Assembly: GCA_963930775.1 (NCBI GenBank)
Contig: OZ005703.1
Span: 3,472,001 to 3,536,000, forward strand
From: Cliona cf. orientalis
Taxonomy: Eukaryota; Porifera; Demospongiae; Clionaida; Clionaidae
Direction of reading: 5' to 3'
DNA length: 64,000 bases
This document shows positions 14,391 to 52,700 of this stretch, in pieces (position 1 is the stretch's first letter; every line of letters begins with the position of its first letter). The position numbers and the translations under genes were made by a program. The notes under the pieces were generated by a model. That model had not been told where the DNA came from and searched no databases. It was given only the letters and a program-made list of their open reading frames with translations.

Positions 14391-14571
14391 CCGTAAATCG
14401 CGAATATTTCGTTGTTAAAATATTTTCGGACAGCATGGCTTGTACGAAAATTAAACGCACGAAATACATGTGCAATATTAACGATAATGCGGTACAGGGT
14501 CGTTTGTCCGAAAATTATTAAACGCGAAAATTTATCACATGTTTTAGACACGAAATATTCACAATTTACGG
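14391..14571. mobile_element. MITE family A, copy 1
   Basis: 181 bp, flanked by TA on both sides, with ends CCGTAAATCGCGAATATTTCG and its complement. Other copies are at 20234..20419 and 44879..45054. The internal word is CGAAAATTAAA/CGCGAAAATT in both orientations, and the core reads ggtacagggtcgtt. Confidence 0.88.
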
Positions 14572-14612
14572 TATTTGCTTGGATACATACAATTTAATAC
14601 TAAATTTAATTA

Positions 14613-15198
14613 CCGTATACTTTCTAATATAGGCGCCACCAAAAATTAATTACAGATCGCGCAGGCGCCTCCAATTAGAACTGAAAAATTCACGAGCAGG
14701 TCAAAGGGCGCCTAAATTAGGGAGGCACCTAAGAGCTGCAATTAGAACGGTTCTGGAAGTTTTGCCAGAGCACAAACGCGATCACTAATCGGTCCTATTT
14801 AGTGGCAGTCAATATGATAGTGGCGAGAACAACAAAAATATGGTTCTAGTTTCAGTTCTTTTTCTGATCGCTGAATCATTCTCGAGTTGTCGGTACCGTA
14901 GCCATCAGAACGATTTTCTCTAACTCTAGAAAGACTCATCAAAGTAATCGGTAAGTGCCCATATAAATGTATGAGAGAGCTTAGTTTGACATCTAAACTA
15001 CTAGCTCCGATAAATCAATTGCTGGTATCGCGGTATTGCCATATATGCATATGGCACGTGGCAATACGTTCCAATTAAATAGGCGCCGCCTAAAAATAAT
15101 TGATCTCCGGAAAGGCGCCTTAAATTAGAACCGAAAAAATTGCGCAGGTCTCAAAGGGCGCCTAAATTAGGGTGGCGCCTATATTAGAACATATACGG
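14613..15198. mobile_element. MITE family B, copy 1
   Basis: 586 bp, TA-flanked, with ends CCGTATACTTTCTAATATAG and CTATATTAGAACATATACGG (inverted). Near both ends the word GGCGCCTAAATTAGAAC is repeated several times in both orientations. The second copy is at 42863..43456. Confidence 0.88.
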
Positions 15199-15667
15199 TA
15201 AAAATTCATATTTACCAAAAAATGAATGTATCTACCTGACTGTATACATAAAAATGGTCACTTGTGATCAATTTGTTTTTTTTTTGGAAACTTGCACCGT
15301 TGGATTCAGCACACACAGGGCTATCAATCCATGCCAAAAGCTCAGTTTTTAATTATGAAAAATTGCAAATGGTCTATTTTTCCACAGTGTTTTTCCCCCT
15401 CCCTGCATTAGGAGGGGGACGTTTTAGGCCAAGTATAGCGATCAGAAACTGCTACTTAGGGAGCGAATTTTAGAGGCCAGTATGTACGTTTATTATTGCT
15501 ATATTTATCACTAAGGTACTGAGCTGGCTGTTGTGCTAGGGGTGCCCAGCACCCTGAGCACCTCCCAGGGTAGTATAGCTAGGGATCGTTATACGGTTTG
15601 AAGAGTGACGATGGTGATTGTACTAGGCTGATAAATCAGTGGACTCGCCCACTCCTCCCCCCTTTGT

Positions 15668-15862
15668 TCCCCCCGGTCCATATATTATTTCGAAATATTT
15701 GGACCCCTGGCCCTTACATTTCTGGACCCCCATTCATGTTATCAATTATAGCAGAGATTGGTTCTGGGTATAAATGGTTAGCAGGGTTAGTTTCCAGGGT
15801 CTGTATGGCAGGGTTAGTCTGCAGGGGGGGGGGTCCGAATATTTAGGGGGTCCAAATATCAC
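15668..15862. repeat. Word-rich inverted-repeat element (family W)
   Basis: The left side contains CGAAATATTTGGACCCC and TTTCTGGACCCCC. The right side contains GGGGGTCCGAATATTTAG and GGGGGTCCAAATATC, an inverted array of the word ATATTTGGACCCCC. Only one copy in the window, so boundaries are approximate. Confidence 0.45.
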
Positions 15863-16049: not shown

Positions 16050-17713
16050 TCAAGGTGTGGCAGACCTCCAACCATCATGCAACTGCTTCCTAAGTTGTTT
16101 CACTAAATTTTTCATCTCTAATTTATTAGCAAGGTTTTCATTCTCATCATTAAAGAAGACAGTAGGGTTGGTGTGGTCATAGAGTTCTGTGCCCCAGATT
16201 TTATCAAAATATGGTGTAGCTAACGTGCGATTAAAGCTGTACCACTCAGTGAAACGATACTGGTCCACACGCATAGTATAGCCCATTACACTTTCATCGT
16301 GTTCACCAGAAGGAAATGATGGTTTGTTCGGAATTTGAGGAAGACCTGAAAGTGGTCGAGCATACTGTGAGAACGCTGCTTTCTTCCATTGTGTGCTTGG
16401 ATTCTTAAGCAAGGGGAAAACACTGGTCCCTTCAACACACGTAAGAAAACTGTTATTACCCTCAGGGCAAACAGTGGGAACCTTCAAACCAGCTAGTTCA
16501 GTTAGTGATGGAAAGATGTCAATTAGTTCAACAAGAGCATTGGAACGCATGCCATTATCAGTCATCCCCGGTACACGAAGAATGAAGGGAACGTGAACTG
16601 CATCTTCAAAGTTGGTGTATTTCTCCCACTCATTGTGTTCGCCTAGCTGCCAGCCATGATCGCCCCAGAGAACTATGATAGTGTTGTCATCAAACCCCTG
16701 TGCTTTCAATTCCTCAAGGATTTTTCCAATTTGTGCATCAGTGTAGCTAATGCAAGAATAGTAAGCTCTCCTCAATTCCCGAGCCTTTTCATCAGGCATG
16801 TGACACCTTTGACTGTGTATGGAAGCTTCTGCGTCGCTAGTACAATCTTTATCAAAGTTCATATCTTTAAAGGTACGGAAATACGACCAGACACTCCATG
16901 CGATATCAGGCATACCATCAGGTGCATCTTTGTTCATTGCTAGTTTAGTTTCATTGATTGGAGGATACATGTCGAAGTATCGGTCCGGAGCATACAGAGG
17001 CATGTGTGGTTTGTGAAATCCAACGGCCAAGAAGAATGGTCTGTTGTCTCCATTTGATCTGTTTTGACCGAGTTCTTTCAAGACTGAAACTGCATTATCA
17101 GCAATTTGTCCATCAGGGAGTTGGTTGTCCTTGAATCCCTCAAATGACCACCATGATGAGGTTTTATTTCCAGGACCATAGTTATTTTCAATGGGAGAAT
17201 GATAGTATGGAAGGCCTTCTGGACTCCAGGAATACATTTTGTCATCGTTTCCACTTGCCGCACCTGGGTGAAAGATCTTCCCCATTCCAATGCTGATGTA
17301 GCCATTCTCCTTGAAGTATTGTGGAATGGTGGTGGCATTGGTGACTGGCCTCCAGTACTCGTCTCCTGAGATCTTCCATACGTGATTTGTATCTGGTCTA
17401 CGCCCTAGAGAAATATATGCATAGACGCCTAGTAATAATTACATTCTTAGTGGATTTATAGGATTCAACTCTTACCTGTCAGTAGAGATGCTCTCGAAGG
17501 AGAACAAAAGGCCACCTGACAGTATGCACGATCAAACACCATTGATCTAGCTGCTAATTGATCGATGTTAGGACTCTTGATGTAAGATTGATTGTACGCA
17601 CCCAGTTCTATACGCAGGTCGTCAACGGCAAAGAAGAGGATATTCTTCTGTGCATTGCACTGCGTATAATTAGGAATAGCAAGAAACGAAACTATTACTA
17701 CTATGCGAAGCAT
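16050..17713 (-). CDS. Iduronate-2-sulfatase-like sulfatase, paralogue 1, 2 exons
   Basis: Exons 17476..17713 and 16050..17404 give 530 residues (human IDS 550). Lysosomal sulfatases of this type remove 2-O-sulfate from iduronate in heparan and dermatan sulfate. Signal peptide at residues 1 to about 20. The formylglycine site [11 protein letters not shown] (Cys70) and metal ligands DD31-32 are present, as are [22 protein letters not shown] and [14 protein letters not shown]. The motif [10 protein letters not shown] after the active site is IDS-like. The start is the first ATG that opens with the signal peptide; the in-frame codons before it are not ATG. The exon 1/exon 2 junction falls directly after LLTG, at the same place and phase as in paralogue 2. 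Whether iduronate is the real substrate is inference. Confidence 0.9.
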
Positions 17714-17734
17714 ATTAAGCACCTTCCCTGAAGG

Positions 17735-17748: not shown

Positions 17749-17771
17749 CTCGGCCTCGAGCTCGCTATATA

Positions 17772-18007
17772 GTCTTCTAAAAATTCGGCCCTCCTAATTA
17801 TTCGCGGTACCTTTACGGATAGTCTCGTGCCCAGACCCCACCCCCGTTATACCGGTAGTCTCTAATTTTTCGGCAAAGGTCGTCATGCGTATAATAATAT
17901 ACTATAAACGGGAATGGAATGCGCACGCAGACAGAATGATGAATAAAAATTCGGCGAAGCTAAAGCAATATTATTATTTTCATGCCGAATTTTTAGAAGA
18001 AATACGG
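17772..18007. mobile_element. MITE family F, copy 1, about 60 bp upstream of sulfatase 1
   Basis: The right end GCCGAATTTTTAGAAGAAAT ACGG is followed by TA; the left end is decayed (CTTCTAAAAATTCGGC). The family word GCCGAATTTTTAG is repeated in both orientations. A full copy is at 48533..48747. Its position places it in the likely promoter of sulfatase 1. Confidence 0.8.
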
Positions 18008-18340
18008 TATATATAATTGGGGCGAGCCCCACAAAACGGTTCCTCAATGTTCGTTGTCTATATACATATATATTGGATACGTCGGTCACGCGAAATTATA
18101 TCCCCAGCATGAATCTATGGATATAAACGCGAAATATTCTACTACGCATTCTCATATATAGGCCGTATATACGCTGTTTCTAATTTAGCGAATTGCAGGC
18201 AGAGTTTTAGTACGTACAGTATCGCCATCGCATGATCGTGGCATCAACGTTGAACCAAGTGTAAACCAGAGAAAAGTAAGGCTGCAAAGGAGGACAGAGC
18301 TCGTTGTTAATCATAGTCAGCTCAACCGCGCAAGGAGCGG

Positions 18341-19327: not shown

Positions 19328-19329
19328 GA

Positions 19330-19827
19330 ACAGATTTTAATAATTATTGCGTAGTTTAATGATTGCGTTCTAGTCAAGTCAGGCCAAATTGCGAATCCAA
19401 TAATTGCGATAGACGACCCCGTACCGTGCCGTAGTACCGACCCGTTAACGTTTTTATATACGATCGCGGGTGCATTTCTTCAGCCACCGGATGTAATTGT
19501 CGGTGTACTTCTTGATCTTGCGAACTTCCGCGGTATTGCCGCTTGACCACCAAAATGGCGGATAGCAACGATTGCTATGCACGCCTGTTAAGCGCATGCG
19601 CTTATAACTTCACCAAGATGCGCCTAACAAGAAGGGGTATCAGTGGACCAATCGCGCAATCATTCGTGTTGCATTCCGCCCAGCTCGAAGTATGTCATAG
19701 CAGTAGCCATTGTGATAGGTTAAGGGTCACATAATTATGCGCCTATACGTGCATGTTTATGTTTGCGAATCTATTAATTGCGAAACGTAGAAATACTCGC
19801 AATTCGCAATTAAAACCCGACTTACGG
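19330..19827. mobile_element. MITE family E, copy 3, interrupted
   Basis: The left part (cagattttaat...gacgaccccgtaccg) and right part (gtgcatgtttatgtttgcga...aaacccgacttacgg) match family E at 39811..40016. About 300 bp of other sequence (roughly 19441-19742) lies between them. The right end abuts family L at a shared TA. Confidence 0.7.
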
Positions 19828-19829
19828 TA

Positions 19830-20603
19830 CCCCGCGCGCACATTGCGCAATCTATAGAATTGTTTTTGTGTGCATCTGTGAACTTCAGAAAGTTGGTGGA
19901 AGTGCTGCTTAAGAGTTAAGTTAATCAGCTACCAGAGGTCCCGGTGACAAAAAGCACTCTCTCTGCACCAGATCTAGACTACTAGGAGATATGAACTCTG
20001 ATACTTCCAATAATATATATTATTGTGTTGTAATAGTATAGCCATGGAGCTGCAGATTTTAGCTCTGTCAGCGGATGGACGATAGATTTCACGATTTCGA
20101 CTATCTTTACCAGTCATATTCTTGGCTAAGCTTACTTAGTTGTGCGCATGAGCAGAAAACACAATGGCATGCATTATGCATTGAGTAGGCACTGTCGATA
20201 GGCGTGGCTACGTTTGCCAATAAAAAGGCACTACCGTAAATCGCGAATATTTCGTTGTTAAAATATTTTCGGACAGCATGGCTTGTACGAAAATTAAACT
20301 CACGAAATACATGCGCAATATTAACGATAATGCGGTACAGGGTCGTTTGTCCGAAAATTATTTAACGCGAAAATTTATCACATGAAATATTTTAGACACG
20401 AAATATTCGCGATTTACGGTATTTGTGACGCCCGTGGACCGTGTCCATCGATTTGACGCACACTGAAGCTAATTTTTCGCCGAATTCGATTGATTCGTTG
20501 CTCTTACGAGTCGCTTAGATGCCTATATCTCGAGATATGGCGATTTTTGTGCTCACGACAATGACACAACCGATTACTTTACCCCTTGCGCATGCGCGCG
20601 GGG
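19830..20603. mobile_element. MITE family L, copy 1, carrying an inserted family A element
   Basis: Inverted ends CCCCGCGCGCACATTGCGC and its near-complement GCGCATGCGCGCGGGG, TA-flanked. It matches 62894..63474, except that the family A element at 20234..20419 plus one duplicated TA is inserted here. Confidence 0.88.
20234..20419. mobile_element. MITE family A, copy 2, inserted in family L
   Basis: 186 bp, ends CCGTAAATCG and CGATTTACGG. The uninterrupted family L copy reads ggcactatttgtgacg; here the TA of that site is duplicated on both sides of the element. This shows a TA target duplication, as in Tc1/mariner-type transposition. Confidence 0.93.
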
Positions 20604-20668
20604 TAGTAAATTAGTATATTAAATGCAATGATGAGGCCATAGCATGTGCGAACTTCATTCGACTATCG

Positions 20669-21455: not shown

Positions 21456-23132
21456 TCACGGTAAGGCAGCTCTCCAACCAGCCTGCAGCTGTTTTCGCAG
21501 TTGCATTACCACACTCTGCATCTCTTGCTTACTTGCAAGGTTTTCATTCTCATCATTAAAGAAGATGGTAGGATGGGTATGGTTATAAAGTTCAGTGCCC
21601 CAAATCTCTTCAAAGCGTGGCTTTCCTTCTGTACGGTTGAAACCATACCATTCAGTGAACCTGAACTTATCCACACGGATAGTGTAACCCATCACACTTT
21701 CACCGTGTTCACCAGATGGGAAAGCTGGATGGCCAGGGATTTGAGGAAGTCCAGAGGAAGGTCGAGGATACTGAGAGAATGCTGCTTTCTTCCACTCCAT
21801 ACTTGGATCCTTGAGTAAGGGAGCAACGCTTGTCCCCTCAATGCATGTGAGCTGGTCATTGCTACCCTCAGGGCAAATATTCGGAACTGCCAAACCAGCT
21901 AGTTCGGTTAGTGATGGAAAAATGTCAATTAGTTCAACAAGAGCATTGGAACGCATGCCATTATCAGTCATCCCTGGTACATGAAGAATGAAGGGAACGT
22001 GAACTGCATCTTCAAAGTTAGTGAACTTTGCCCACTCATTGTGTTCGCCTAGCTGCCAGCCATGGTCGCCCCACAGAACTATGATGGTGTTGTCGTCAAA
22101 CCCCTGTGTTGTCAATTCTTTTAGGACTTTTCCAACTTGAACATCTGTGTAGCTAACACAAGAATAGTATGCTCTCCTTATTTCTCTAGATTTATCATCA
22201 GGCATTTGACATTCCTGGCTGTAGATGGCTTCTGCATCATGAATACAATCCGTCTTGTTGAATATCACTTTCATGTCATCCCATGAACGAAACGTTGCCC
22301 ATGTACTCCATGCTATATCAGGCATTCCATTGGGTGCATTTGGGTTATCAGGTAGCTTTGTTTCACTTACACTTGGGTACATGTCAAAGTATCGATCAGG
22401 AGCATACAGTGGCATGTGCGGTTTATGGAATCCAACGGCCAAGAAGAATGGGCGATTGTCACCGTTAGATCTATTCTGTGCAAGTTGCTTTAACACTGAG
22501 ATTGCATTATCAGCAATTTGTCCATCAGGGAGTTGGTTGTCCTTGAATCCCTCAAATGACCACCATGATGAGGTCTTATTTCCAGGGCCATAGTCCTTTT
22601 CAATGGGAGAATGATAGTATGGAAGACCTTCTGGGCTCCATGAATACATACTATCGTCGTTACCATTAGGTGCACCTGGGTGAAAGACCTTCCCCATTCC
22701 AATACTGATGTAGCCATTCTCCTTGAAGTATTGTGGAATGGTAGTGGCATTCGTAAACTTCCTCCAATACTCGTCTGCTGAGATTGTCCACACATGGTTG
22801 GTATCTGGTCGTCGTCCTATAGAAATTAAGAATAATATTATTATTATTCTAGATACCTGTATGCATCTGGATGGCATTATCCGACGTTTATAGATAGGCT
22901 CACCTGTGAGTAAAGCCGTTCTGGAAGGAGAGCATACGGCTACCTGGCAGTATGCTCGCTCAAACACCATTGACCTATCTGCCAATTTGTCAATGTTGGG
23001 ACTTTTCACTTCGGGATGGTTGTACGTACCTAACTCTGTGCGCAAATCATCGATGGCGAAAAAGAGGACATTCTTCTGTCCTACTGCAGAGCCAACAGAA
23101 AACGAAATAAAAAGGATTAGCAAGGACAACAT
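21456..23132 (-). CDS. Iduronate-2-sulfatase-like sulfatase, paralogue 2, 2 exons
   Basis: Exons 22904..23132 and 21456..22816 give 529 residues, closely similar to paralogue 1 along the whole length. Signal peptide at residues 1-18, formylglycine site CSPSRTALLTG (Cys67), DD ligands in FAIDDLR, and GFHKPHMPL and [14 protein letters not shown] present. The 87-bp intron (22817..22903) has GT-AG ends at the same position and phase as in paralogue 1. It is also a multiple of three and free of stops, so an unspliced transcript would read straight through, adding 29 residues right after LLTG. The LTR element's 3' LTR ends 133 bp upstream of the ATG on the same strand. Confidence 0.9.
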   Translation of the reverse strand: MLSLLILFISFSVGSAVGQKNVLFFAIDDLRTELGTYNHPEVKSPNIDKLADRSMVFERAYCQVAVCSPSRTALLTGEPIYKRRIMPSRCIQVSRIIIILFLISIGRRPDTNHVWTISADEYWRKFTNATTIPQYFKENGYISIGMGKVFHPGAPNGNDDSMYSWSPEGLPYYHSPIEKDYGPGNKTSSWWSFEGFKDNQLPDGQIADNAISVLKQLAQNRSNGDNRPFFLAVGFHKPHMPLYAPDRYFDMYPSVSETKLPDNPNAPNGMPDIAWSTWATFRSWDDMKVIFNKTDCIHDAEAIYSQECQMPDDKSREIRRAYYSCVSYTDVQVGKVLKELTTQGFDDNTIIVLWGDHGWQLGEHNEWAKFTNFEDAVHVPFILHVPGMTDNGMRSNALVELIDIFPSLTELAGLAVPNICPEGSNDQLTCIEGTSVAPLLKDPSMEWKKAAFSQYPRPSSGLPQIPGHPAFPSGEHGESVMGYTIRVDKFRFTEWYGFNRTEGKPRFEEIWGTELYNHTHPTIFFNDENENLASKQEMQSVVMQLRKQLQAGWRAALP

Positions 23133-23163
23133 AATAATTTAATATCACTACTTGGATCCTTAT

Positions 23164-23508: not shown

Positions 23509-24909
23509 TCAAGTCCAGGTAGGTTCAAATCTCTCAACAGGAACACGGTTACGCTTTGGATAGGATTTCTCACGAGTAGGATTTACTCTCACTGCATCTG
23601 GGTTAGTTGGAATAGGATCAGGTGATGCAGGCTCTGAATTCGTGTTCTCAGTTGGCATAGTCTCAGAAGCAGGACTAGCAGTAGAAGATTCAGTGTTAGC
23701 AGATGTAGTTTCTGGTGAAGATGGTGGAATGACAATATCTGGAATATCAGGCTCACGATGAGAGTCCTGAGGTACTTCCACTGAACGTTTGCGAACTTGA
23801 TCTTGATGACAACGTCTAATTTTACCATTTGCAAGTCTCACTCTGTAGGAAACAGGACCAGTTTTCTGTTCAACAGTACCTGGCAACCATTTGTCTCCAT
23901 GATGGTAATTTCTCACAAAAACATCATCTCCAGCTTCAAAGTTTCTCTCTCTGGATCTAAGATCATGTTTCTCTTTCTGTTTCATCTGATTCCTCTCTAC
24001 TCTCTCAGCAGTATTGGGTTTCAAGAGATCCAGTCGTGATCTAGGACGGTGTCCCAACAATAGTTCACTCGGAGAGATTCCAGTTGTGGATTGTGGAGTG
24101 AGGCGGTAGGTTAGAAGAACTTGAGCAAGGCGAGTACGCATAGTACCATGAGTGATCTTCCTCAATCCTTTCTTGACTATCTGTACAGCGCGCTCAGCAA
24201 GCCCATTGGAGGCAGGATGATAGGGTGCTGAGGTTAGATGCTTGATGCCATTACTTTTGAAAAATGCTTCGATTTCTGCACTGACAAAACACGTACCATT
24301 ATCAGTAACAACTGTTTCAGGAATTCCAAATTGTGCGAATATCGTTCTCAGTTCCTCAATCACGGCGGTAGAAGTAGCATTCGGAGTGCAAATAGCCTCA
24401 ATCCATTTGGAATGAGCATCGACCATGACGAGTATCATCTTTCCTTGTACCGGTCCGGCGTAATCGAGGTGTAAGCGTGCCCATGGCCTAGTAGGCCAAC
24501 TCCACGGGTGCAATGGGGCAACTGACGGTGTTGATTGGTGCAATTGACACGCAGAACATTGTTGGACGGTTCGTTCGATATCCTTCGTGATACCAGGCCA
24601 CCATACATACATCCTAGAGAGTCCCTTCATTCGTGTGACACCAGGATGACCTTCATGAAGCTCAGTGAGTACAGCATCTCGGCAGGCATGAGGAACAATG
24701 ACCCTAGTACCCCACAGTAGACAACCTTCATAAATTGAGAGCTCTGCTTTCTTCTCGAAAAATGGGGCAAGCTTGTCCGGATCTGGACATACACTAGGCC
24801 ATCCCTGCTGTACAAACTGAACAATTGGAGCGAGCTGTGGATCCTTTCGAGTGTACTCTTTAATTTGGTGAGCAGTAACAGGAGAATTATCAAGGTGATC
24901 CACTAGCAA
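23509..24909 (-). CDS. LTR element integrase open reading frame (fossil)
   Basis: 466 codons: an HHCC zinc-binding module (HEGHPGVTRMKG ... CSACQ), a DDE catalytic core (LDYAGPV, TDNGTCF, NGLAERAVQ), a GPY/F-like C-terminal module (KTGPVSYRVRL) and a low-complexity Ser/Pro/Thr tail. Confidence 0.92.
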   Translation of the reverse strand: MLVDHLDNSPVTAHQIKEYTRKDPQLAPIVQFVQQGWPSVCPDPDKLAPFFEKKAELSIYEGCLLWGTRVIVPHACRDAVLTELHEGHPGVTRMKGLSRMYVWWPGITKDIERTVQQCSACQLHQSTPSVAPLHPWSWPTRPWARLHLDYAGPVQGKMILVMVDAHSKWIEAICTPNATSTAVIEELRTIFAQFGIPETVVTDNGTCFVSAEIEAFFKSNGIKHLTSAPYHPASNGLAERAVQIVKKGLRKITHGTMRTRLAQVLLTYRLTPQSTTGISPSELLLGHRPRSRLDLLKPNTAERVERNQMKQKEKHDLRSRERNFEAGDDVFVRNYHHGDKWLPGTVEQKTGPVSYRVRLANGKIRRCHQDQVRKRSVEVPQDSHREPDIPDIVIPPSSPETTSANTESSTASPASETMPTENTNSEPASPDPIPTNPDAVRVNPTREKSYPKRNRVPVERFEPTWT

Positions 24910-24942
24910 TACAATCTCCGGTGGCGGCTGCTTAACAGACGG

Positions 24943-27564
24943 TTAAACGGGTAAGGGAAGGCGACTCAACGCATCGGCATTTGCGTGAGCGGTCGTATTT
25001 CGGAATTTCAACTTGTATTCGAACATCGATAGGTACAGTGACCAACGTCGGATTCTCGCTGATGCTTGCGGTGAAGTAGGCTTCTGGCTATCAAGGAGGC
25101 CCAGCAGCGGCTTGTGGTCTGTGATTAGGGTGAATGAATGACCAAACAAGTATGAATAAAACCGCTTGATTCCAAACACTAGTGAAAGGCCCTCCTTCTC
25201 GAGCTGTGAATAATTTCGCTCGGCGGAATTCAAGGTACGGGAGGCGTACCCAATCGGCTTCTCTGAACCGTCTGGCATTCGGTGAGCCAGAACTGCGCCA
25301 ATGCCGTAAGCAGACGCATCGCAAGCCAGAAGTAACGGAAGTTTCGAGTCGTAATGGACGAGTAATTGCGAGGACGTGAGTAACTCCTTCGATTCGTTGA
25401 ACGCTTTGTCTTGTGCGGATGTCCATTCCCACGATTCTTTCTTGCTTAGAAGCTTGTAGAGCGGTGCTAGTCGAGTCGATAAGTTCGGCAAGAATTTCCC
25501 GTAATAAGTAAGCAATCCGAGGTAGGACTTCAACTCATTAACATTATTGGGAGTAGGGGCTTGGCGGATAGCTTCAACTTTCTCAGGGAGCGGATGTAGA
25601 CCCTCTGAGTCAATCACACGACCAAGGTAAGGTACGGACGGTACCATAAATTTGCATTTTTGTTTCTTTACCTTCAACTCAGCCTTGGCCAACCGTTTGA
25701 AAACTTCCTCCAAGCTCTTCAAGTGCTCAGCCTCGGTCTCGGAATGGATCAAAATATCATCGATATACACGGTAACGTGCGGAATACCCTGCAACAACTG
25801 CTCCATGGCTTTCTGAAATATTCCTGGGGCAGAAGAGATACCGTACGGCAGGCGTGTGTAGCGGAAGAGGCCCTTGTGGGTGCTGATGACCACGTACTTG
25901 CTTGACTCCTCCTCCAGCTTGAGCTGCAGGTACGCCTGACTCAGGTCTAGCTTGGTGAATAATTTCCCTTGCTTAAGTGTGGCGAAAATATCCTCTGTCT
26001 TAGGTATGGGGTAACGGTTCAGCTTGGACACGGGGTTAATCGTCATTCGAAAATCTCCACAGATACGTACACTCTTACGGTCACTCTTCATCACTGCAAC
26101 GATAGGAGCTGCCCAGTCGGAGTAGTCAACTGGCTCCAGTGTTCCTTCAGCCACTAGTCTGTCCAGCTCCTCCTCGACCTTCTCTCGCATCGCATAGGGA
26201 ACTGTGCGGGCTTTGCAGAAGCGGGGTGTAGCACCTGGATCCATCTCAATCTTTGCCTCGTAATCTTTGAAGGTTCCAAGGCGTTCCTGAAAAAGCTCAT
26301 CATACTGGCTCAGTAAATCATGCAACTGGGGGCTCTGCATGTAGTGGATCTTCTCCCAATTCAATTTAATTTTAGTCAGCCAATTTCTTCCCAGAAGGGT
26401 AGGCCCATCTCCCTTGACAACCACCAAAGGTAGTATAGCTGTCTGACCTTGGTAAACAACTTGTACATCTATGCTACCCACCACTGTAATAGGCTCCTTT
26501 GAGTAGGTCTGCAACCTGATAGTGGATGTACTTAGGCTCCTCCCCGGCCACAACTTGTGGTACCTGTTCTCAGAGATTATGGAAACACAGGCACCTGTAT
26601 CTATCTCCATGGAGATGGAGACCTTATCTACTTCAACTTGTACCTTTATGGGAGGTGTGCGGCCATCTCGTCTTTGGCCAATAGTCAGGATTGGCTGCAT
26701 GGAGTCATCTGTGTCCGAATCGTACTCCTCGTCTAGCTGGCGAACAGGTTGTGAAGTAGTTCTCTTAGTCGACTTTCCTTGGGGTGCAGGTTGGGGTTGA
26801 GATTTGCTCTTGCAGACTCTAGCTAGGTGTCCCTTCTTTTTGCATTTGTGACACACACTGTCTCGGAATCTGCACACAGTTGCCAAATGGCCTGGCTTGC
26901 CACAGCGGTGACAAATCACTCGAGCTCCACCCTCTGCTGTGCTGGCTCTTTTCCCTGCTACCTTGTGCACTGGCTCTGACTTGACATGTACCCCTGTGCT
27001 GCTTCCAGAGGTTGACTCAGCTTTGCCGGGCGATTGCATCTCTTTCAGGTTCTTAGTAGCCGTTTCGAATCCTTTCGCTATCGACACAGCTTTAGCGTAG
27101 GTGAGGTCAGTCTCCTGTAGTAGCTTCTTTTGAATCGGCTCGCCGTTTATTCCCCAGACGATTCGATCTCTGAGCATTTTATTCAGAGTCTCGCCGTAGT
27201 TACAGTGCTGTGCAAGACGACGCAGCCCCGCTACGTAAGCGGCTACGGATTCTCCAGCCTGTCTCGACCTGGAGTTGAAGCGAAAACGCTGCATGACCTC
27301 GGAAGGTGTCGGACTGTAGTGCTCGGTAAGTTTTGCAACCAGCTCGTCGTATTTCTTTTCTTTTGGCTTCGCAGGAGCAAGGAGGCTTCTCAACAGTTTG
27401 TAGGGCGCCGGCCCGATGACCGAGAGGAAAGTAGCCCGCCGCTTGTCCGCTTTCGCGTCTCCAGTGAGATCGTTAGCCTCGAAAAATTGCTCTAGCCTCT
27501 CCACGTACTGAGGCCATTCCTCCTGCTCGGGATCATACTGCTCTATCTTTCCCAGCAGTGCCAT
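24943..27564 (-). CDS. LTR element Gag-protease-RT-RNase H open reading frame (fossil)
   Basis: 873 codons. Gag ends in two zinc knuckles (CHRCGKPGHLATVC and CHKCKKKGHLARVC). An aspartic protease follows with the DTGA active-site motif, then reverse transcriptase with YIDD, then RNase H (ACDASAYGIGAVL). Encoded by the LTR element, not a host gene. Confidence 0.93.
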   Translation of the reverse strand: MALLGKIEQYDPEQEEWPQYVERLEQFFEANDLTGDAKADKRRATFLSVIGPAPYKLLRSLLAPAKPKEKKYDELVAKLTEHYSPTPSEVMQRFRFNSRSRQAGESVAAYVAGLRRLAQHCNYGETLNKMLRDRIVWGINGEPIQKKLLQETDLTYAKAVSIAKGFETATKNLKEMQSPGKAESTSGSSTGVHVKSEPVHKVAGKRASTAEGGARVICHRCGKPGHLATVCRFRDSVCHKCKKKGHLARVCKSKSQPQPAPQGKSTKRTTSQPVRQLDEEYDSDTDDSMQPILTIGQRRDGRTPPIKVQVEVDKVSISMEIDTGACVSIISENRYHKLWPGRSLSTSTIRLQTYSKEPITVVGSIDVQVVYQGQTAILPLVVVKGDGPTLLGRNWLTKIKLNWEKIHYMQSPQLHDLLSQYDELFQERLGTFKDYEAKIEMDPGATPRFCKARTVPYAMREKVEEELDRLVAEGTLEPVDYSDWAAPIVAVMKSDRKSVRICGDFRMTINPVSKLNRYPIPKTEDIFATLKQGKLFTKLDLSQAYLQLKLEEESSKYVVISTHKGLFRYTRLPYGISSAPGIFQKAMEQLLQGIPHVTVYIDDILIHSETEAEHLKSLEEVFKRLAKAELKVKKQKCKFMVPSVPYLGRVIDSEGLHPLPEKVEAIRQAPTPNNVNELKSYLGLLTYYGKFLPNLSTRLAPLYKLLSKKESWEWTSAQDKAFNESKELLTSSQLLVHYDSKLPLLLACDASAYGIGAVLAHRMPDGSEKPIGYASRTLNSAERNYSQLEKEGLSLVFGIKRFYSYLFGHSFTLITDHKPLLGLLDSQKPTSPQASARIRRWSLYLSMFEYKLKFRNTTAHANADALSRLPLPV

Positions 27565-27597
27565 GAGTTCGAGATCCCGTAACTCGTCGCCAAAATA

Positions 27598-27732
27598 TGT
27601 CGTGACTTGGCACAGTGAAGTAAAACTTTTTCATTAATACTTTTTACTTGTCGACAATATTGCAATGCACACATATATATAGAATCACAAAAACCACAAA
27701 ACAGGATACACAAAATAACCACGAACATTACA
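27598..27732 (-). repeat. 5' LTR of the Ty3/Gypsy element
   Basis: 135 bp. It reads TGTAATGTTCGTGG...GTCACGACA on the element strand and pairs with 23265..23390. Confidence 0.93.
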
Positions 27733-40700: not shown

Positions 40701-43700
40701 TGCAATTGAAGGAATTAAGAAGAGGTTGTGTTGATCCTATGAGCATTTGAACCTTTGGCTACTACATGTAAGCTTCAACATCCCAAAGTGTTGCCTGATC
40801 AAACACACTTAAAAAGTTCATTCAAACGTGCAACTACATGTAATAAGTTTTAAGATGTACATTGTGTAAGCTCACCCGAATGCGCTCACAGATCATGTCA
40901 TAATATTGTGAAGTGAGTTCAGGTCTACTGAGTACAAAGCGACCCACAAGATCCACTGCAGCTTCTCGGACAAGTGTGGATGTGTCTCTAAAACGAAATT
41001 CAACAGCACGTTGCATGTCAGGCTGTAGGAACAAATACAGGGCAGTGTTTATGGCAGGATAATTGGGGGGGGGGGGGTGCGCTAAAATTCAAAGGGGTGG
41101 AAACATAAATTCAAGGAGAAACCCCATAAAAAGTATCATAATAATTATGGAAAGCCAATTTGATTAAAAGCATCCCACTCCCTGAAATAGGTATGTATCA
41201 ACAGTAGGGAGTGTGGGAACAATAATACGTGCATAAATCTAGTATATCTGAATACCCTTGAGAGAATTCCTGGATCAGCTGCAATGATAGTAGAGAGGGC
41301 TTTCATAGCTCTTGTTCTCACATGAACAGCAGGCTCATTGGAAACTCTAATTAGCTGTGTTGAAACACCATACTTAGTAACATTTTAAAGGAAGAATATG
41401 GTAATATGCACACCTTCTGTAGGTACATGTCAAAACTCCTAGAGAGAGTTCTAGTAGATCCTAGAAACCTGGTTACAATAGCAGCACTCTTCTCATCCAA
41501 AATCCCTCCCATAGATTTCAGTTCAGATTCGGCTTTTGGATCTAATAGTGACTGAATTTTCTCTTTCTTAAATTCTGATTGTTGTAGAATGACAGCAGAT
41601 GAGCTTATTGTAGGAATATCATCATGGTCATCTAGTAGATTATTTTCAGCTTGTGCAGTAGGAGACTGTGGATTGTCTTTTAAGGCTTTCTCAAGATCCA
41701 GCTGAGTATCATACAACCATTGCCCAATGTAGAAATCACGGGCAAACTGGTACATGTGAGTGTGTGTATAAGTGCAAGGCAGACTCAGTGAAGTGAATAT
41801 ACCACACATAATATACGTACATGTATGTAGGTCAACACTTACAGCACAAGCAGGGTCAGACTTTCCCCTCTTGTTGAGATAGGCAATCAAGACTTTCTGC
41901 AAATGCTGAGCATTCTCAGAGAAGGCATCCTGGCATAAAAGCATCAAAGTTGCATAATAATAATAATGTTATTATGGTACACTGATGTTACTATTATATA
42001 CATTGTACTACGTTTATCTGCTCAGTCTATCTAGCAACCTTAGAATGACAACCATTTGCAGCAAAATCTAAAATTTACCACTTCCACCCCCCAGTAGCCA
42101 ATGGAAACAAGAAGTATTTGCAGAGTAAGGAAATTTGGCATATTATCATAGAGTCAGTAGACTCTATAAGTAGGGATGGCACGGATACTCCATATATTAA
42201 TACATTATAAACATCCAAATATCTCAAAACTGATAACTTTTTGAAATTTCTAGCGTCAAAATCAGAATCTACAGCAAATCGTCTATCTAACAAGACCAAG
42301 ATCATTCATCAACTCAATTATATATGCCAGAACCAGATGTGCAAAAAATAGCCGTTTGTTATTCTTTCTCTGTTTTCCTCGACTAACTCAAGACTACCAT
42401 GACCGCTCACCTTAATTCGAGTATAAATCCACTCCATTTTGGAGTGCGCACGCCTGTGGCACGCTTGTTTTGTGATATCAGGATAGTGATTTAATTGTGG
42501 GTGTGTACAGCACATTTTGCAAGTAGGTGTGTCTAATTAGCCATTTTGTCATATAATGCACATGCTCATACGGTGTTGCCATGGTGAAGTCATGTGACCG
42601 ATGTCAGTGGCGTGCGTGCACCAGCACATCTATGACCTGCATGCTCGAGCGCTCAGCTGATCAGCTCAGTGAACTGTTGATTATGGTTTCTATTATCAAA
42701 AGACTGCCTGGGATTTGCACTTACAGGAGTATTCAAGTTTGAACTCACGGTGTGTTTGGGGTACCATAGCTGCCTGACTCAATGCTAGGATCGCACAAAC
42801 ATGCCGCTGAATCAGTGGTGTACCTGCTTCCCTATAATATCGTTGGAGCACGATTGGATGTACCGTATACTTTCTAATATAGGCGCCCCCAAAAAATAAT
42901 TACAGATCGTGCAGGCGCCTCCAATTAGAACCGAAAAATTCACGAGCAGGTCAAAGGGCGCCTAAATTAGGGAGGCGCCTAAGAGCTGCAATTAGAACGG
43001 TTCTGGAAGTTTTACCAGAGTCCAAGCGCTATCACTAATCGGTCCTATTTAGTGGCAGTGAATATGAGTGGCGAGAACAACAAAAATATGGTTCTAGGTT
43101 CAGTTCTTGTTGGAAATTTCACTCTGATCGCTGAATCATTCTCGAGTTGTCGGTATCGTAGCCATCAGAATGATTGTCTCTAACTCCAGAAAGACATCAA
43201 AGCAGTCGGTAAGTGCCCATATAAATGTAGGAGACAGCTTAGTTTGACATCTAAACTGCTAGCTCGATAGATCAATCGACGGTACGGTACGGTACCGAGG
43301 TATTGCCATATTGCACGTGGCAATACGTTCCAATTAAATAGGCGCCGCCTAAAAATAATTGATGTCCGGAAAGGCACCTTAAATTAGAACCGAAAAAATT
43401 GCGCAGGTCTAAAAGGGCGCCTAAATTAGGGTGGCGTCTATATTAGAACACATACGTTTTGAAGTTGTAGCTAGTTCCATGCATTTAATAACAATGAATA
43501 GGCAAACCATAATATTAGGTCATAATACTATGTATAGTCAGCTAGGTGGCATTGAAGAAAATTAATGACAATCATAAACTACCCTGAGGGCACTAAAAAA
43601 GAACAGTGACAAGTATAAAAAACAATTGAATAAATTGAAGGACAAAGTAGGGATGGCAGTGCCAAAAAAATACACTAACAAGATTTTGTAGGGATAATGT

Positions 43701-46700
43701 ATCATATACACCCCTACGCTTGCTTTTTGAGTAGTCGTGCACACACACATTATACCGATATGGGGGCACATGCAGGAATGGAAAATCAATAGTTGATCAA
43801 TATCAAAATATAGCGATACTTTACATACTGAATCAGAAGTGTATGATATTAAATTAATTATTGAGAAAAGCAAGCGTAGGGTTGTATAGTGGATGTGATA
43901 CATTATCCCTACAAAAACTTGTTTGTATATTTTTGGCACTGCCATCCCTACTTCATCCTTCAATTTTATTTAATTGTTGTTTTATGCTTGAAATAAATAT
44001 AAAATACCGTATTTATTCGAATACTAGCCGCGGCTACTATTAATTTCAGCCTTGCTGGAGTGCAGCTACTAACCAAGGGCAGCTCTTATGGTGGCTTTTA
44101 CTAATTTTGGAGTGACACCTTGGTGACATTGACATGATAGACTTGTATTTCAGGACTGATATTCGAATATTTGAGATAATGATTGATAAGTAAGCAGAAT
44201 TTTTGCCTCGAACTAACGATTGTGCATGGCTTGCAATTGTGGCCACGCCCACTTAATTGTGTTTGCGCATGCGTGCAGCTACTATTAAATTTTGAGGGCG
44301 GCTACTAATCGGGGGTGGCTTCTATTTGGTATGTAAATTGACTACCTTAGGCTACAATTATTTCCGGGTACAAGTTTTAGCAGATTTTGGAAATAGTGTG
44401 TTTAGCTGGTACTAATTTTAGCAATTTTTCAAAATTTAAATCCTATTACCGTATAGCCGGAAAATTTGGCGGGGAATTAAATTTGGCGGTTTGGCAGTCT
44501 ATATTACAACCGCCAAATTAAAACCCGCCAAAATTTCCTACTCGCATATATACGTGTGGCGACCCCGTACCAAACCGCCAAATTTAAATCCGCCAATATT
44601 CTTATAATAGCGATTTTTGGCTCAACCGCCAAATTAATTCCCGCCAATATTTCCGGCTATACGGTAATTCAAAAATGTTGATAAATTTAATATTTGCGGG
44701 TACAATTTATAGCAAAAATTGAGTAAATCACTAATTTCACTAAATTTAGTACCCGCAAACAAAAGTGTCCTTAAGATTTTATCTTTAAGCTATGCCATTT
44801 TAAAGCTACTAGTACGATACTTACATACATACATAATGACCTTTACCATAATATTACCCTGTCTAATACCGTAAATCGCGAATATTTCGTGTCTAAAATA
44901 TTTCATGCAAAAATTTTTCGCGTTAAATAATTTTCGGACAAACGACCCTGTACCGCATTGTCGTTAATATTGCGCATGTATTTCGTATGTTTATTTTTCT
45001 CACAAGCCATGCTGTCCGAAAATATTTTAGCATCGAAATATTCGCAATTTACGGTAATCATTATACTATGGATATGGCAAATACACTAGATTTGCCAATA
45101 GTAGTAAGATCATAGAAATCTCTGTTGATACCTCATCTTAGAGAGGAGGCAACAGAAAGTCAGAATGTTATGATCTACATTTTGGTAATGACCACCTAAC
45201 TTATCATTCTTGGAGAATAGAATTTGCCGGTACCCTAGGTTATGTGAGAGTACGTAGCTCTTGTATGTTAGTATTGTGCTTATGTATATAGTGTGATAAT
45301 AGTGTCACAACACACAGTCATACTATATACAACGAAAAATATTTTTCAGAGCGACAATTTCCTTATATAGTCCGTGTCCTAACCTGGAGGGCACAAAAGA
45401 TGCGCTCTTCTACAAGTTCAGAAGGCTCACGATTGGTCTGAATTGTAGTGCCGTGTGCACAAACGAGGGTGGCCATAGAGACACATTCTTGAGCGAACGG
45501 CGCCAAGCACTGGGCGTTTCGAGAGGCCTGCTCAGCAGGCCACCGAGCCTCAAGCAAAGCGAGGGGTGAGATCTCTTCTTTGTCATAGCTTGATGGTAAA
45601 TTCAATGTTCGAGCAGAGTGAAAATGTTGCCATGCATTACACGGTGAGTTCGAGCAGCTGCTCTTGGCAGGCAGTGTGGGGTGTGGTCTATGCCATAATA
45701 GCATAGGTTCAAAGTTCGGTGCTACATTCATCTGCACATGCGCACTGTACTAACTGGTAGCTCATGTGATATTAGCCCATGATTATGACATCAAACATAC
45801 TTGCAGATAAATGCTGTATAAGTATTGTAGAATCCCACGATTACGCCCCCCCCCCCCCTTTGTGCATGCTAGCATTGGGCAAAGCAGGGAGGGGGCTTAT
45901 ATGCGGGATACTAACATTTCTGTGTGATGACCACTACCGACCGTCGAATGCCACGTGGGCGTGCGATCTCTGCACTTTCTCTGGCTGTTTGGTGGGCAGA
46001 ACTCGAGAAAAAATTAATGATAAAGTAAGGCATAATACCGTAGGATGGGTTTTAATTGCGTAGTTTAATAATTGCGTTCTAGTCAAGTGAGGCCAAATTG
46101 CGAATCCAATAATTGTGATGGACGACCCCGTACCGTACTGTAGTATACGTGAATGCAGACATTACAGACCATAAGCCAAGTAAAAACAGTAGCCACAACT
46201 AACAAACTATGTAGCTATTAATTTTGTGTCATACTGTAGGTCGGGTTTTAATTATGAGTATCTATTAATTGCGAATTGTGAGTTTTTCTACGTAAATTGA
46301 AGGATGAAGTAGGGATGGCAGTGCCATAAAATACACAAACAAGATTTGTAGGGATAACATATCACATCCACTATACATCCCTAAGCTTGTAAGTGCAAAT
46401 CCCAGGCAGTCTTTTGATAGCTAGCTCAGACGTCTTCTTTTGCATCATGCATCAGTGGGGTTTCCGAGACAGCTCAACATCTGGATTGACCTGAGAATGA
46501 AGCCATGCCCCTCGTTATCTCGATCCTGAAGCTGGCTGACCGGCAAACTTGAAAGAAGGCTGTTTAGAACCAAGTAGCGACAAAAATCTTCTGTTTCGGG
46601 AGCATATTTTATAGGCCAGTAAGCTTACTGTTGGTAAGTAGCCACCATATTAATCGACAATTTACTGAGTTAAGGTCCTGGCGCATGCGCGCCACTTACA

Positions 46701-49700
46701 TCAATCACATGACTTCACCGTGGCAACACTGTATGAGCATGCGCATTATATGACAAAATGGCTAATCAGACACACCCACTCGTAAAATGCGTTGTACACA
46801 CCCAATTAAATTGCTTTGTACACACCCATAATTAAATCACTATCCTGATAACACAAAATGAGCGTGCCACAGACGTGCGCACTCCAAAATGGAGTGGATT
46901 TATACTCGAACTAAGGTGAGCGGTCATAGTAGTCTCGAGTTGGCCCAGGAAGACAGAAAGAAAGAAAGAAACACTGACAAATGGCTATTTTTTTGAACAT
47001 CTGGTTCTGGCATATACAATTGAGTTGATGGATGATCTTGGTCTTGTTAGATAGATACTTTGCTGTAGATTCTGATTTTGACACTTAGAAAGCTCACAAA
47101 GTTACCAGTTTTGAGATATTTGGATTTTTGTAATGGATTACATATATGGAGTATCCGTGCCATCCCTACTTATAGAGTCTACCGACTCTATGATAGTGCA
47201 AGTTAGCAGGGAATTTGAACCTAGCATAATCTGGCTCCTTCAGTAGGTATGCACACAGAGTGAGACAGTATTAGTGGGTACTTTTCAGGCAATACATACC
47301 AGTTTTCCACTAGGTGAAGGACTCCTGTGATCTATTTTACTCTGCAGGACCTGTGAGAGAATCTCAATGAGTTCTTCATGGTCCTCTTCAGAGCAAGAAG
47401 TAGCATCCTTTCTCAATCTGGCTGCTATGACGCCAAGGTGCTCTAGGGATGTCAGACGGAGGCTCTGCTCATTGCTACGGTTACTGAACGAATGAACCTA
47501 TAGAAGCAATATCAATTGTATGGATACATTGCATCTATATCCCCATACGAATTTAGCACTCTTAGTGATACAGGTAGTATTGTATTCACATGGTATATCA
47601 AATGATACAGAACCCACAATATTGGATACCTTTATTCAGTATAGCACTACATAACATAGTATGTGGACTACAAAAGAATGAGTGTACATGAATAGCATAA
47701 ATCACTCATATGCATATCCATTAATTTTCATTAACTTACCAGCAATATTCCCAGAAGGGTCAGCAGCACTTCAGAGGCAGGCCACTCAGGCAGGTTCAGA
47801 GTTGTAAGAAGATCTTGGACAAAATTTTCAAAAAGTGGTCTAAAATCATCCTCATCTTTGCCACTACCACACCTACAAGAGTAAATATATACATACACAT
47901 TAATATATTTTATGGACATAATGTTATTGAGATCTACTTCTTCAGGAATTTAGAGAGAAAGTTGTTTCCAGTAGATAAAGCTAAATCATAACTTGTGGTC
48001 ATCTGAAAATGAGCATCAGGCTACAGAAAATAAAATGAATATATTATTGTGCAGAATACACTATTGTATCTACATTTAAAGTACATGTATGCATTCTCAC
48101 CTTCTTTTCCTTCTGCTGATCATCTTGTTCTTCAGAGGTTGTCTCACTAGTAGTATTCTTTGCTGGTGTCACGATGCACTGGATCAGCTGCAGCACAAGA
48201 GCTGTCAGCATCTGAATGTGTTGACCATTGTACAACCTGCATTAACAAACTCAATAATATTCAGCTCACAGGCATGGAGTTTGTTTTAATAGCCATCTAT
48301 TGTAGCCTCCTCCCTAAGCCACTCCCAGGTTTTCAGTGTTATGTATAGAAAAATGGTGTGGCCAAGAGATGTAGCTACATGTACATGTACATGTATGTCC
48401 GTCCATCTACTGTACCAAGGCCTAGAGCTTACATACTGTATATAAGTTGTAACTCGCACATACATAATTATATGTACATGTATATACATTTACCATTCTC
48501 TAAGCACAAAAATACACTTGCATATACATGTACCGTATTTCTTCTAAAAATTCGGCATGAAAATAATATTGCTTTAGCTTCGCCGAATTTTAGCGGTTAA
48601 TATTCAATATTCTGTCTGCGTGCGCATTCTATTCCCGTTTATAGCATATACATGTGACGACCTTTGCCGAAAATTAGAGACTTTTTTCAATCATTCGGTA
48701 AAGGGTGCCGAATAATTAGAAGGGCCGAATTTTTAGAAGAAATACGGTACGTGCATTCTATTCTGTACATGTATATGCACATGTGTGTGAGTAGTATACT
48801 GTTCAACAACTAACTTGAAGCTCCTTAGATTTCTCTTTGTGGTAGGCAGCCTTCTAAGGGAGGCAAAGATGTCTTCCAGGATCAGATCTCGATGCTTCTC
48901 ATAGCGTGAAAAGACCTGTGATGAAGAAATATAAATCAAAGTAGCAATAGTGATGAGATAGGATCACTTACAGCCCTCACTAGACGAAGGGCACTAAGCT
49001 GCAGTAGGTTGATGTTCTCCACAAAGAAAGGATAAGTACCCAGAGAGGATAGCTGAGGGAACAGTGGATTTATTCACATAAAAAAAAAACAATCATAGTT
49101 TCAAATTAACAGAGTGATACATGTAGTTACATGTGCATATCAACACACACCATCAATAGAATTGTATCGGTGAGAGGTTGTGTCTCTACAAGTAGTGCAA
49201 TATTCTCCAAGACTTCAGTCATTTTGTGGTAAACTGCCTGGGCCTCCTTGCTTGCAGACTGATTACCAGCCCGTCGCTTCTGTCTAGATAGGGCTCCTCC
49301 CACTGTACAACAACAAATACACACAACCAGATAAGAGCCGTTATGCCAGTGGTCCAATCTTCCACAAGAATACCTTTATTTTCAGCTCTGTATACTGGAT
49401 CAAACTGTGGGTAGATATTGGATTCCAGATGATACTTTGTGAGGGTAATGATCTGCTCAATGGACTCCTCTAAGTGAACATTTTTAGGCATGTTGGAAGC
49501 AGTTGTAATGTGCAATATTATCAGCGCTGCATCAGCTGAACGAAGAATTCTCTCCTTGGCTATATCCCTCCACACTTTGGGATCACAATCCATTTCATCC
49601 TGAAGTTAAAATGTGTGCATGCATGTTGCTAACGGCATCCAGTGCCACTACAGAAAACACCTCGTTAATTAATGTAACAATTACCACATCCCTAGTAGCT

Positions 49701-52700
49701 TCATTATATACCGCATTTATTCGAATAGAGGCCACACCTCGATTAGTAGCCGCACATGGAGCTCTGTGAAAGAAATAGTAGCTGCCCTCAAATAGTAGCC
49801 GCACGCATGCACGAACACAATTAAGTGGCGTGGTCACGATCACAAGCGCTAGTTCGAGGCAAAAATATGGCAGAAAAGGTCCTTGGCTTGGTTCTGCTGT
49901 TGTTGATCAATCATCTATCTCGAATATTCGAAAATCAGTCCTGAAAATAGAGTCTATTGTGTCAATATCACCAAAAGGTGTCGCTCCAAATTAATAAAAA
50001 CCATCCTCGAATAAGAGCTGCCCTCAATCAGTAGCCGCACTCCAACAAGGCTGAAATCAATAGTAGCCGCGGCTAGTATTCGAATAAATACGGTAATATG
50101 GTAAAGGGTCACTATGTGTACATTGTAAGTAGCATATGCAATGTTACATAATCGTCAAATGCTTTAAAGTGGCACAACTTGAAATGAAAACAGATGACAA
50201 ACTTTAAAATATTTATAGAACCATTTTTCATATTCACCTGTATCTGTACCAAATTTCACGATTAGATACCCTTACTGGGCAAAATAATATCGTTTGTTTC
50301 AGAAGAGTGAATTGCTACTAGGGATATAACTTACAGATGCAGAGGTGAGACTTAGATTAGCAGTGTCCAGTAGATGCTTATCCATCACTCCTATTAACTG
50401 CACTAAATTGTCCACTGATACCTGCAATGCAGAACACATGATAGTCTTAATACAACTAAATTATTAGCACCCTACCATGTGGAGAATGCCCATCTGCTTG
50501 AGACTTGCAACATGAGATAGGATGGCCATCACTCCACTTCGCTCAAGGAGGTTATCTGCAATAAGGCTTCTATCACAAAACCATCACCACCACCTCTACA
50601 TGCATTTGCAAACAATGCAAACACACCTAGGCAAATTTCCAGCCACCAGAGGGGAGTGGAACTTAATTGGGGTGCATTGATTGTGCACATAAATAACCCA
50701 ATTTAGAAATAGCTATTGAGAATCCTGCTATCTGATTGGTTAAAATAGTGCACTGTTGAGCTGGTAGTGACAGAGAGCTGTTTAGGCTCTAGAGTTTGTT
50801 GCTAACTCACAGTTCTTGTTCTAATTAGCTTTGACTTGTCCTTTTGAACTTTCTTGCTGTCATGGTCAGTGGCACAGGCAGAGAAAAAGTCTGCACTACA
50901 AGGCTCACCTTATTGCCTCCACGAAGAGGAATGGGCTGCGTGTTTCGAAAGGCCTGCTGAGCAGGCGCTGGCCAACAGAATCTATACTCTTTAGAGACCC
51001 TCAGGCCCTTAGTAGCACCCTCACTGCACTTGGAATGTTACAGCCTCAGCCCTTCGGGTCTCTAAATCACATAGATCCCTCGGATTCAGTATTTATAGAT
51101 AGATCTTGCAACTACTACAGCCATGGTAAGTTAATTCAATAGATCTTTGTAACTCTGCTATCTAAAAGCCAAGCATACATGTAGTATTCACATTATTTGC
51201 TTAAGTATAAATACATGTATACTGAGCAGTATATGTAGCTACAAAGTGGTTCCAAGCTGACAGCAATGTCATGTAAGTACCTCAGCAACTATAGCAGGCA
51301 GGCTTTCGTACATGAGCCCACTACATACATTTAGATCCTACTTGTAACAAATACAGTGATCTGATTGGTTAAACTAAAGTAGCTATCCTTCATAAAAAAA
51401 CCTTGTAAGCCCCATAAAAGACCTTGTAAGCTCCATAAAAAACCTGGTAAATTTTGTTAGCCTATGGCTAGTTTGTTGCTAGGCAGTTGTTTATAGACAA
51501 AGCTATTGGGCATTGTTGCTAGGATCTAAAGTAGTTAGACACTGTTTAGTCAGTTTCTACGTGATTTAGAATACCTCAGGGCTCAGTAGAACCCTCGCTT
51601 CACTCGGGATTCTACACAGAGCCCTTCTGTCTTCTAAATCACATAGAAACCTCCTAAACAGTGTCTAACTATTATGTAAAACAGAAGGCTTGCAGGTCCA
51701 AAGTATAGCAAGGCCTCGCTAACTAATGATGGTAGTCTTGCTTGTTATATGTATCTACACAAACGCGGCACTTACATGTATGTACAGAGTGTTTTACCTT
51801 CAGAAATGACTTGGTCAAACAATGATTCCAGTATATCAGTGAATCTCTGAAGATTAGCCATCTTGGTGGGATCTACAAACATTACATGAAGAAAATATAA
51901 TATGTGAGCGGATTTGAGAAAAGGGCCCACTTCGCGCATTTCCCGAAATTTCGTTTTAAATCGCGCATAACTTCTGAACTGTAGTAGCTATGAGCTTCAG
52001 ACTTGGAGCAAACATTCTTCAGTCATTAGTCAACACTCGCTGTAAATTTCGCGCCCCGCCCACATCTGGTGTGGGCGTGGCGCCCGCGCGTATCGATCGC
52101 GTTCGAAATCGGCCGTTTTATGCCTCACTTCAAGCGTTCAGTGCTTTGGACAGGAGCTTTGCCAGACTCTCTAACGTTGGATATATTTAGTAGAAGGCCT
52201 GATCTGCTTACAAACCAAGCGAGAAGCCTAAGGCTCTTATAGTTTTTGTGTGGTGACAGCTTGAAAAGTGCCAAAAATTCGCGTTTTGCGCGAAGTGGGC
52301 CCTTTTCTCAAATCCGCTCACATATAGTAACAAAATTGTAAAATGTTTGCATGGTTATAGCATATGCATGTATCAGGAATTCCATACAGTAACATGGGCC
52401 ACAACATAAAAATCTTATAGTATTCAGAGTAAATAACGAATTTTATTTCATGAATCTCCTCATAGCACTAACATCAACTATCAACATATGAATGGACCAC
52501 ATAACAGATGACAGCTGAAGTTTGTATTGTAATAAAGTTTATCACATTTGTACTTTCTTGTGATTTATGGCGATATCTATGCATTGGTGGGCGTTATGCC
52601 TCAGTATCGATCAACAAGTAAATTCACTATAATGTTCTAGGTTTGTACAGGGCACTAACAATAGTAAAATGTCATGTACAATGTATGTCTGCACTCGTAC

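Follow-up and report, generated by a model that had tools for sequence, protein, structure and literature searches.

In hAT Ac/Ds and CACTA elements, short repeated subterminal words serve as transposase binding sites; target duplications are 8 or 3 bp long in these groups and a 3-bp TWA in PIF/Harbinger, and the tips of Tc1 and pogo are of the CAGT type. Tigger1 terminal repeats hold an A/T run and a GCG key repeated about 15–17 bp apart, letters that our literature search did not return, and the CENP-B box spans 17 bp. The sections of a survey that describe the pogo group (PMC7386202) assign a TA target duplication to its families, part of Fot and Fot-like excepted, and terminal repeats of ≤40 bp to most of them, record Tigger in Porifera, and list CENP-B_N and/or HTH_Tnp_Tc5 as the domains of pogo/Tigger transposases. 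Here we analyse 64 kb, free of N, from the sponge Cliona cf. orientalis (GCA_963930775.1, contig OZ005703.1, positions 3,472,001–3,536,000; hereafter the window, whose own coordinates are used throughout). An earlier note, made from the letters alone, had described in it six families (A–F) of miniature inverted-repeat transposable elements (MITEs) with TA-CCGTA ends, sharing one architecture in which a family-specific key is swapped. Our main new result, going beyond that note, is that the key has a fixed register: all eight families considered (A–F, a seventh family G, and an outside relative, L016) have their first G/C key beginning at position 22 or 23, counted from the terminal T.

The seven positions before the key (15–21) consist of A/T alone in the main rows of A, B, D, E and F and nearly so in L016 and C, and in G only the last three of them are A/T. 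Across 26 ends of the eight families, averaged per family and compared at positions picked after inspection, the contrast in G/C between positions 22–26 and 15–21 is 0.71, a value reached by none of 20,000 circular shifts and by none of 20,000 under each of three other choices of families. A second copy of the key follows at an offset of 16 bp in A, 17 bp in B, D, E, F and G, and 18 bp in C and L016, located at the right end for B and F and at the left end for G and L016; the offset is 15 at the right end of D1 and 16 at the left end of E3. The contrast at this second key was reached by 27 of 20,000 shifts (39 to 52 with the other family choices). Two rows of the end alignment (E1R and E4L) stand three bases out of register, which affects the listing and the all-end mean alone.

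Summed over eight left ends (a single one from each family), the self-match at offset 17 comes to 42; in 2000 shuffles it has a mean of 18.2 and a maximum of 32 (35 as the largest over all offsets). A test for a 16–18 bp repeat, applied to eight left and six right ends (the right ends of E and G were not included, and C is represented at left by C2), gave p≤0.01 at seven of the 14 ends, drawn from seven of the eight families, with G at 0.0165; scores were 7 at the left ends of A, C and G and 10–12 for D, E, the right ends of B and F, and L016. Among 14 inverted-repeat arms taken from the window as controls, left untrimmed with respect to true element ends, none reached p≤0.01. Among same-strand pairs of family words lying 10–40 bp apart in eight elements, 13 of 21 are spaced by 15–18 bp, which none of 5000 random placements equalled, and a further six by 32–36 bp, about twice the unit, leaving exceptions at 24 and 29; four of the six interior pairs also fall at 15–18 bp (reached by 31 of 5000 placements). 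The proposal of one architecture with swapped keys is supported and made more precise: in the eight families the first key lies equally far from the end, and words on one strand mostly recur at 15–18 bp or about double that.

The words themselves are beyond chance in some families more clearly than in others. In a de novo test, the best 9-mer of each element (≤1 mismatch, right 30 bp excluded) was compared with 40 dinucleotide shuffles and with 40 real segments outside the elements. It was equalled by no shuffle for A1–A3, B1, B2, D1 and E1, by one for C1, C2, D2 and L016, and by six for both F1 and F2; among real segments, the counts were none for A1–A3, C1, D1 and E1, one for B1 and B2, five for F1, seven for L016, 10 for C2, 11 for D2 and 14 for F2. 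The arrays of family words described earlier therefore stand out clearly from shuffles in A, B, D1 and E and weakly in C, D2 and F. When one word per family, picked from the very elements tested, was counted with both ends included, its matches exceeded the largest of 200 shuffles in A2 (6 vs 5), B1 (11 vs 6), C2 (6 vs 5), D1 (9 vs 4), E1 (6 vs 3), F1 (5 vs 3) and L016 (5 vs 3) and equalled it in G (4 vs 4). Words of other families have 0–3 matches per element, except for four matches to the F word in D1. In the word, word-spacing and flank-joining tests the end of E1 was set at 40022, four bases too far.

The element A2 (20232–20421 with its flanking TA, minus strand) is inserted at TA. It sits in a dispersed repeat (20100–20620) whose second copy (63147–63480) is empty, the two being 86.7% identical over 286 aligned columns. 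The paralogous empty site (63147–63423, plus strand) has the junction GGCAC-TA-TTTG, and the filled copy reads GGCAC-TA-CCGTA...TACGG-TA-TTTG, so the single TA of the empty paralogue marks TA as the point of insertion; an element carrying one TA itself and making no duplication would leave identical letters. TA is also present at the intact ends of other elements, and it is the target site in the IS630-Tc1-mariner superfamily. Joined flanks of 12 other elements (A1, A3, B1, C2, D1, D2, E1, E2, F1, F2, G and H) gave no match across the junction, the bounds of E1, E2 and F2 being imprecise and B2, C1 and E3 left out.

A search of the window for inverted pairs of 100–2500 bp with TACCGTA-like ends (≤1 mismatch, terminal score ≥10) gave 11 pairs, against 0 or 1 in each of 10 random sequences from a first-order Markov model. 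The window has 27 occurrences of TACCGTA or its complement, where about 3.5 would be expected in random sequence. Eight of the pairs are the elements A1, A2, A3, B1, C2, D1, D2 and F1; the others are G, a pair joining F1 to C2, and H (58789–59969), whose ends read TACTGTA and which we rejected as a further family because its left end fails the 16–18 bp test (p 0.98). The A–F elements have terminal inverted repeats and occur in several copies, as is required of MITEs. Besides A2, family A comprises A1 (14389–14573, minus strand, with its core on that strand) and A3 (44867–45056, plus), both given with flanking TA. Family B consists of B1 (14611–15200, plus; word TTAGGCGCC, with a TACCGTA near its centre at 14894) and B2 (42861–43460, plus; right end degraded and end coordinate approximate), and family C of C1 (44005–44330, plus; right end lost, end coordinate approximate) and C2 (49709–50095, minus; word ACTAGCCGC / AGTAGCCGC, left tip CCGCA). 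D1 (44447–44666, plus) has nine matches to its word AATTTGGCGG at ≤2 mismatches; D2 (39375–39784, plus) has both tips mutated and an interior unlike that of D1. The E elements are E1 (39809–40018, minus; word TTAATTGCGA, right tip one base off), E2 (19346–19829, plus; interrupted by about 300 bp of other sequence and broken at its left end) and E3 with a second partial E copy from 46232 (46036–46291, plus). F1 (48531–48749, plus) has the word AAAATTCGGC, F2 (17765–18009, minus) a degraded left end and approximate start, and G (35186–35606, plus) ends in TACCATA, with the common key position and the word ATAAGCCCCC.

The earlier description holds in most respects, but some of the boundaries had to be revised. 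Perfect TA-CCGTA ends, ascribed to all A–F copies, were found on both sides in six of 14 (A1–A3, B1, D1 and F1), on one side in seven (B2, C1, C2, E1, E2, E3 and F2) and on neither in D2. A3 had been started at 44879 and its CCGTA lies at 44869; E2 and F2, placed at 19330 and 17772, lack an intact left end; and E3, taken as a single element, appears to consist of two adjacent partial copies of E.

A core, CGACCCYGTACC, had been attributed to A, D and E. It has seven exact matches in the window, three in A, one in D1 (CGACCCCGTACC, 44560–44571, plus strand) and three in E, those besides D1 starting at 14491, 19414, 20334, 39921, 44943 and 46123; it was not found in D2, and at two mismatches the six further matches all lie outside A, D1 and E. 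The related variant in F was recovered, as was the ATATACRTGT stretch of D1 and F1. In the six elements measured, the core or its F variant lies near the middle (0.43–0.60 of the length). A motif related to the core, RYGACCCTTWACC, whose consensus was picked after inspection, has 11 sites at ≤1 mismatch in the window against 0.29 expected. Three are the A cores, and eight (13033, 14165, 18339, 19718, 27745, 29164, 50100 and 58957) lie outside the A–F cores, one of them in the sequence that interrupts E2 and one directly next to C2. Flanking sequence is mostly unrelated from site to site, with 13033/13082 and 50100/44836 among the closest pairs. Because this motif recurs elsewhere in the window, the core may not belong to the transposition signal, and one guess is that it may be a site for a host factor. 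By eye, RYGACCCTTWACC looks like GGTCA-like half-sites in direct repeat. In A the core continues into TACCGCA, in E into TACCGTA. The idea that the core is a buried element end was considered and is not supported: five of 49 comparisons had a shuffle fraction below 0.02, and in none of these was a family matched to the terminal repeat of that family (fractions of 0.22 and 0.08 for A with A and 0.034 for D with D). Nor is the alternating purine–pyrimidine stretch beside the core special, as the window has 71 such runs of 12 or more.

We propose, with a probability of roughly 0.6, that these are non-autonomous, TA-targeting transposons (MITEs) and that their words are phased sites of transposase binding, which have diverged within a fixed geometry. 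The elements would be moved by cut-and-paste and inserted at TA. The outer TA-CCGTA tip would act as a cleavage signal common to the families, and the inner terminal repeat would consist of phased units of ~17 bp, an A/T-rich stretch followed by the G/C key, read by the DNA-binding domain of the transposase. Unit letters vary by family and unit place is constant, as would follow if related transposases changed the letters they recognize while their geometry stayed fixed; interior units would be extra sites arisen by local duplication, and arrays may also have spread by copy conversion, given that the local units of D1 are about 90% alike. We infer that the words bind transposase, one site per unit, and that words and transposase diverged together. 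The shared distance of the key, together with the 15–18 bp phase, favours transposase sites over freely placed silencer sites, two of the possibilities that the earlier note had named.

Several observations weigh against this proposal. No transposase was found, Pfam having been run on 10 of the 31 long open reading frames of the window, and none of the 31 stop-to-stop frames of ≥110 amino acids lies inside an A–F element, shorter stretches (up to 80 amino acids in D2) not being searched. Insertion at TA is demonstrated for a single element, A2, and the CCGTA tip differs from the CAGT-type tip of Tc1 and pogo. The pattern also varies among families: in A the key is just CG, in G the A/T stretch is three bases long, in C that stretch holds two G/C, and the second key of C appears at the left end of C2 alone, with no repeat at the left end of C1 or the right end of C2. 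The second unit is not significant at seven of the 14 ends tested, and eight of 130 TACCGTA-like sites outside the elements reach a score of 7. Words, key positions and spacing range were all picked after inspection, and eight families are few. They are also not fully independent, because B, C, F and L016 share TTTNTTCKAATA-like letters at positions 8–19.

The words might instead attract a DNA-binding repressor or a silencing system of the host that follows the elements, and the arrays would have been kept, or have grown, through that factor. This would suit the words in the interiors of B, C and D, which exceed what end recognition needs, and the recurrence of the core relative at eight sites outside the A–F cores against 0.29 expected overall; it predicts no common distance between key and cleavage end, and we consider it unlikely. 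It is improbable, too, that the arrays are by-products of replication through fold-back DNA and slippage, with the 15–18 bp phase reflecting the length of a duplicated unit and no binding role. The high identity of the D1 units fits such an origin, as do the strong hairpins of D1 (z −9.4) and F1 (z −5.9). One of the eight sites outside the elements, at 31150 on the minus strand, moreover scores 14 in the 16–18 bp test. Since its TACCATA tip is followed by a long poly-C run at the key positions, as in G, this site may represent another G element or an effect of poly-C. Slippage would nevertheless have to produce a near-identical unit length and key position separately in each family, and none of the 14 other inverted-repeat arms of the window shows a 16–18 bp repeat. 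Descent from a single ancestral element, with word differences due to ordinary drift and an inherited register uninformative on binding, agrees with the letters shared by B, C, F and L016 and the core shared by A, D1 and E and is very improbable, since copies of a family's own word stay alike within an element and differ between families (less so for C, D2 and F), and drift would blur both.

The outside relative came from scans with the tip pattern, which yielded 74 loci in a collection of genome contigs, near chance (~60 by a rough estimate), and 12 in a collection of viral contigs; four other viral contig scans found nothing. A terminal-pair scan and blastn of the 86 loci left one relative, L016 1214–1409, in contig LFLC01000066.1, titled Nitrosopumilus sp. 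LS_AOA, which we take to be a metagenome-assembled genome from the glass sponge Lophophysema eversa. The tips of this element are TACCGTA and its word is AATAATCGCC; the first key begins at 22, and at the left end successive units are spaced by 18 and 17 bp. It stops 104 bases short of the contig end. Its own genome contains no further copy at E≤0.01, and its region (1214–1513) was found in that genome alone among the 95 of its group, while its flank (640–1213) has short matches in six others. Most probably host DNA was joined on at the contig end, which would explain an element near that end being single-copy and absent from 94 related genomes, although this is a guess, and the element may instead have been transferred into the archaeon. 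L001 was rejected as a weak terminal pair, and L008, L021, L057, L064 and L070 as short tip matches alone. By eye, L021 1–140 and L070 1–140, from one archaeal metagenome-assembled genome, share a stretch with a tip-like pattern in opposite directions near their starts, which looks like an assembly overlap and no element.

Elsewhere in the window, Pfam identified a sulfatase-like gene and a Nipped-B fragment. Two minus-strand frames (16050–17438, with the Pfam sulfatase match, and 21456–23138) form a sulfatase-like pair that is alike by eye, and long, open gypsy-like gag-pol frames, also judged by eye, occupy 23509–27630 on the same strand. A frame at 61180–61785 resembles a tyrosine recombinase by eye, had no Pfam match at E≤0.01 and overlaps long inverted repeats (61652–62180). 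An inverted-repeat family with GTAGGGATGGCAGTGCC, separate from A–G, occurs at 43632–43966 and 46294–46389. No family reached its gathering score in a scan of the window with Rfam, and no tRNA gene was found there.

If the words are transposase sites, as we propose, pairs of family and transposase from the host genome would form matched addresses and readers in constant geometry. One could then test directly how a transposase comes to change its specificity and keeps from moving the elements of another. Used as a search pattern, the grammar (tip, A/T-rich stretch, a key beginning at 22 or 23, a further key after 16–18 bp) could also join families kept apart by letter-based repeat searches. A bolder reading, which we find doubtful, is that one transposase lineage radiated in this genome into many specificities under a fixed protein–DNA geometry, leaving at least seven MITE families as separate address labels. 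The phased arrays would then be a natural record of a two-helix-turn-helix DNA-binding domain changing its code, with the central core, a relative of the recurring motif, recruiting a host factor.

No paper on these families was among the matches listed in a search of open-access literature, which did not cover repeat databases or subscription journals. The elements resemble the subterminal-array transposons hAT Ac/Ds and CACTA in their repeated words, but the A2 junction fits TA only; we accordingly rejected membership in PIF/Harbinger or hAT, as the junction accommodates neither a 3-bp TWA nor an 8-bp duplication. With Tc1/mariner MITEs they share the TA target site (in A2), shortness and terminal inverted repeats, whereas here phased word arrays extend into the interior. 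The likeness to pogo/Tigger lies in TA insertion, and the tandem units present here may correspond to those of Tigger terminal repeats; the CCGTA tip and the coexistence of several families that differ in their words set the elements of the window apart. As a lead only, the likeliest owner is a pogo/Tigger-type transposase with two helix-turn-helix domains, a suggestion prompted by the insertion at TA, the Tigger1 repeats and the CENP-B box. The same lead draws on the record of Tigger in Porifera and the domain list in the relevant sections of PMC7386202, with those of PMC7325037 also cited.

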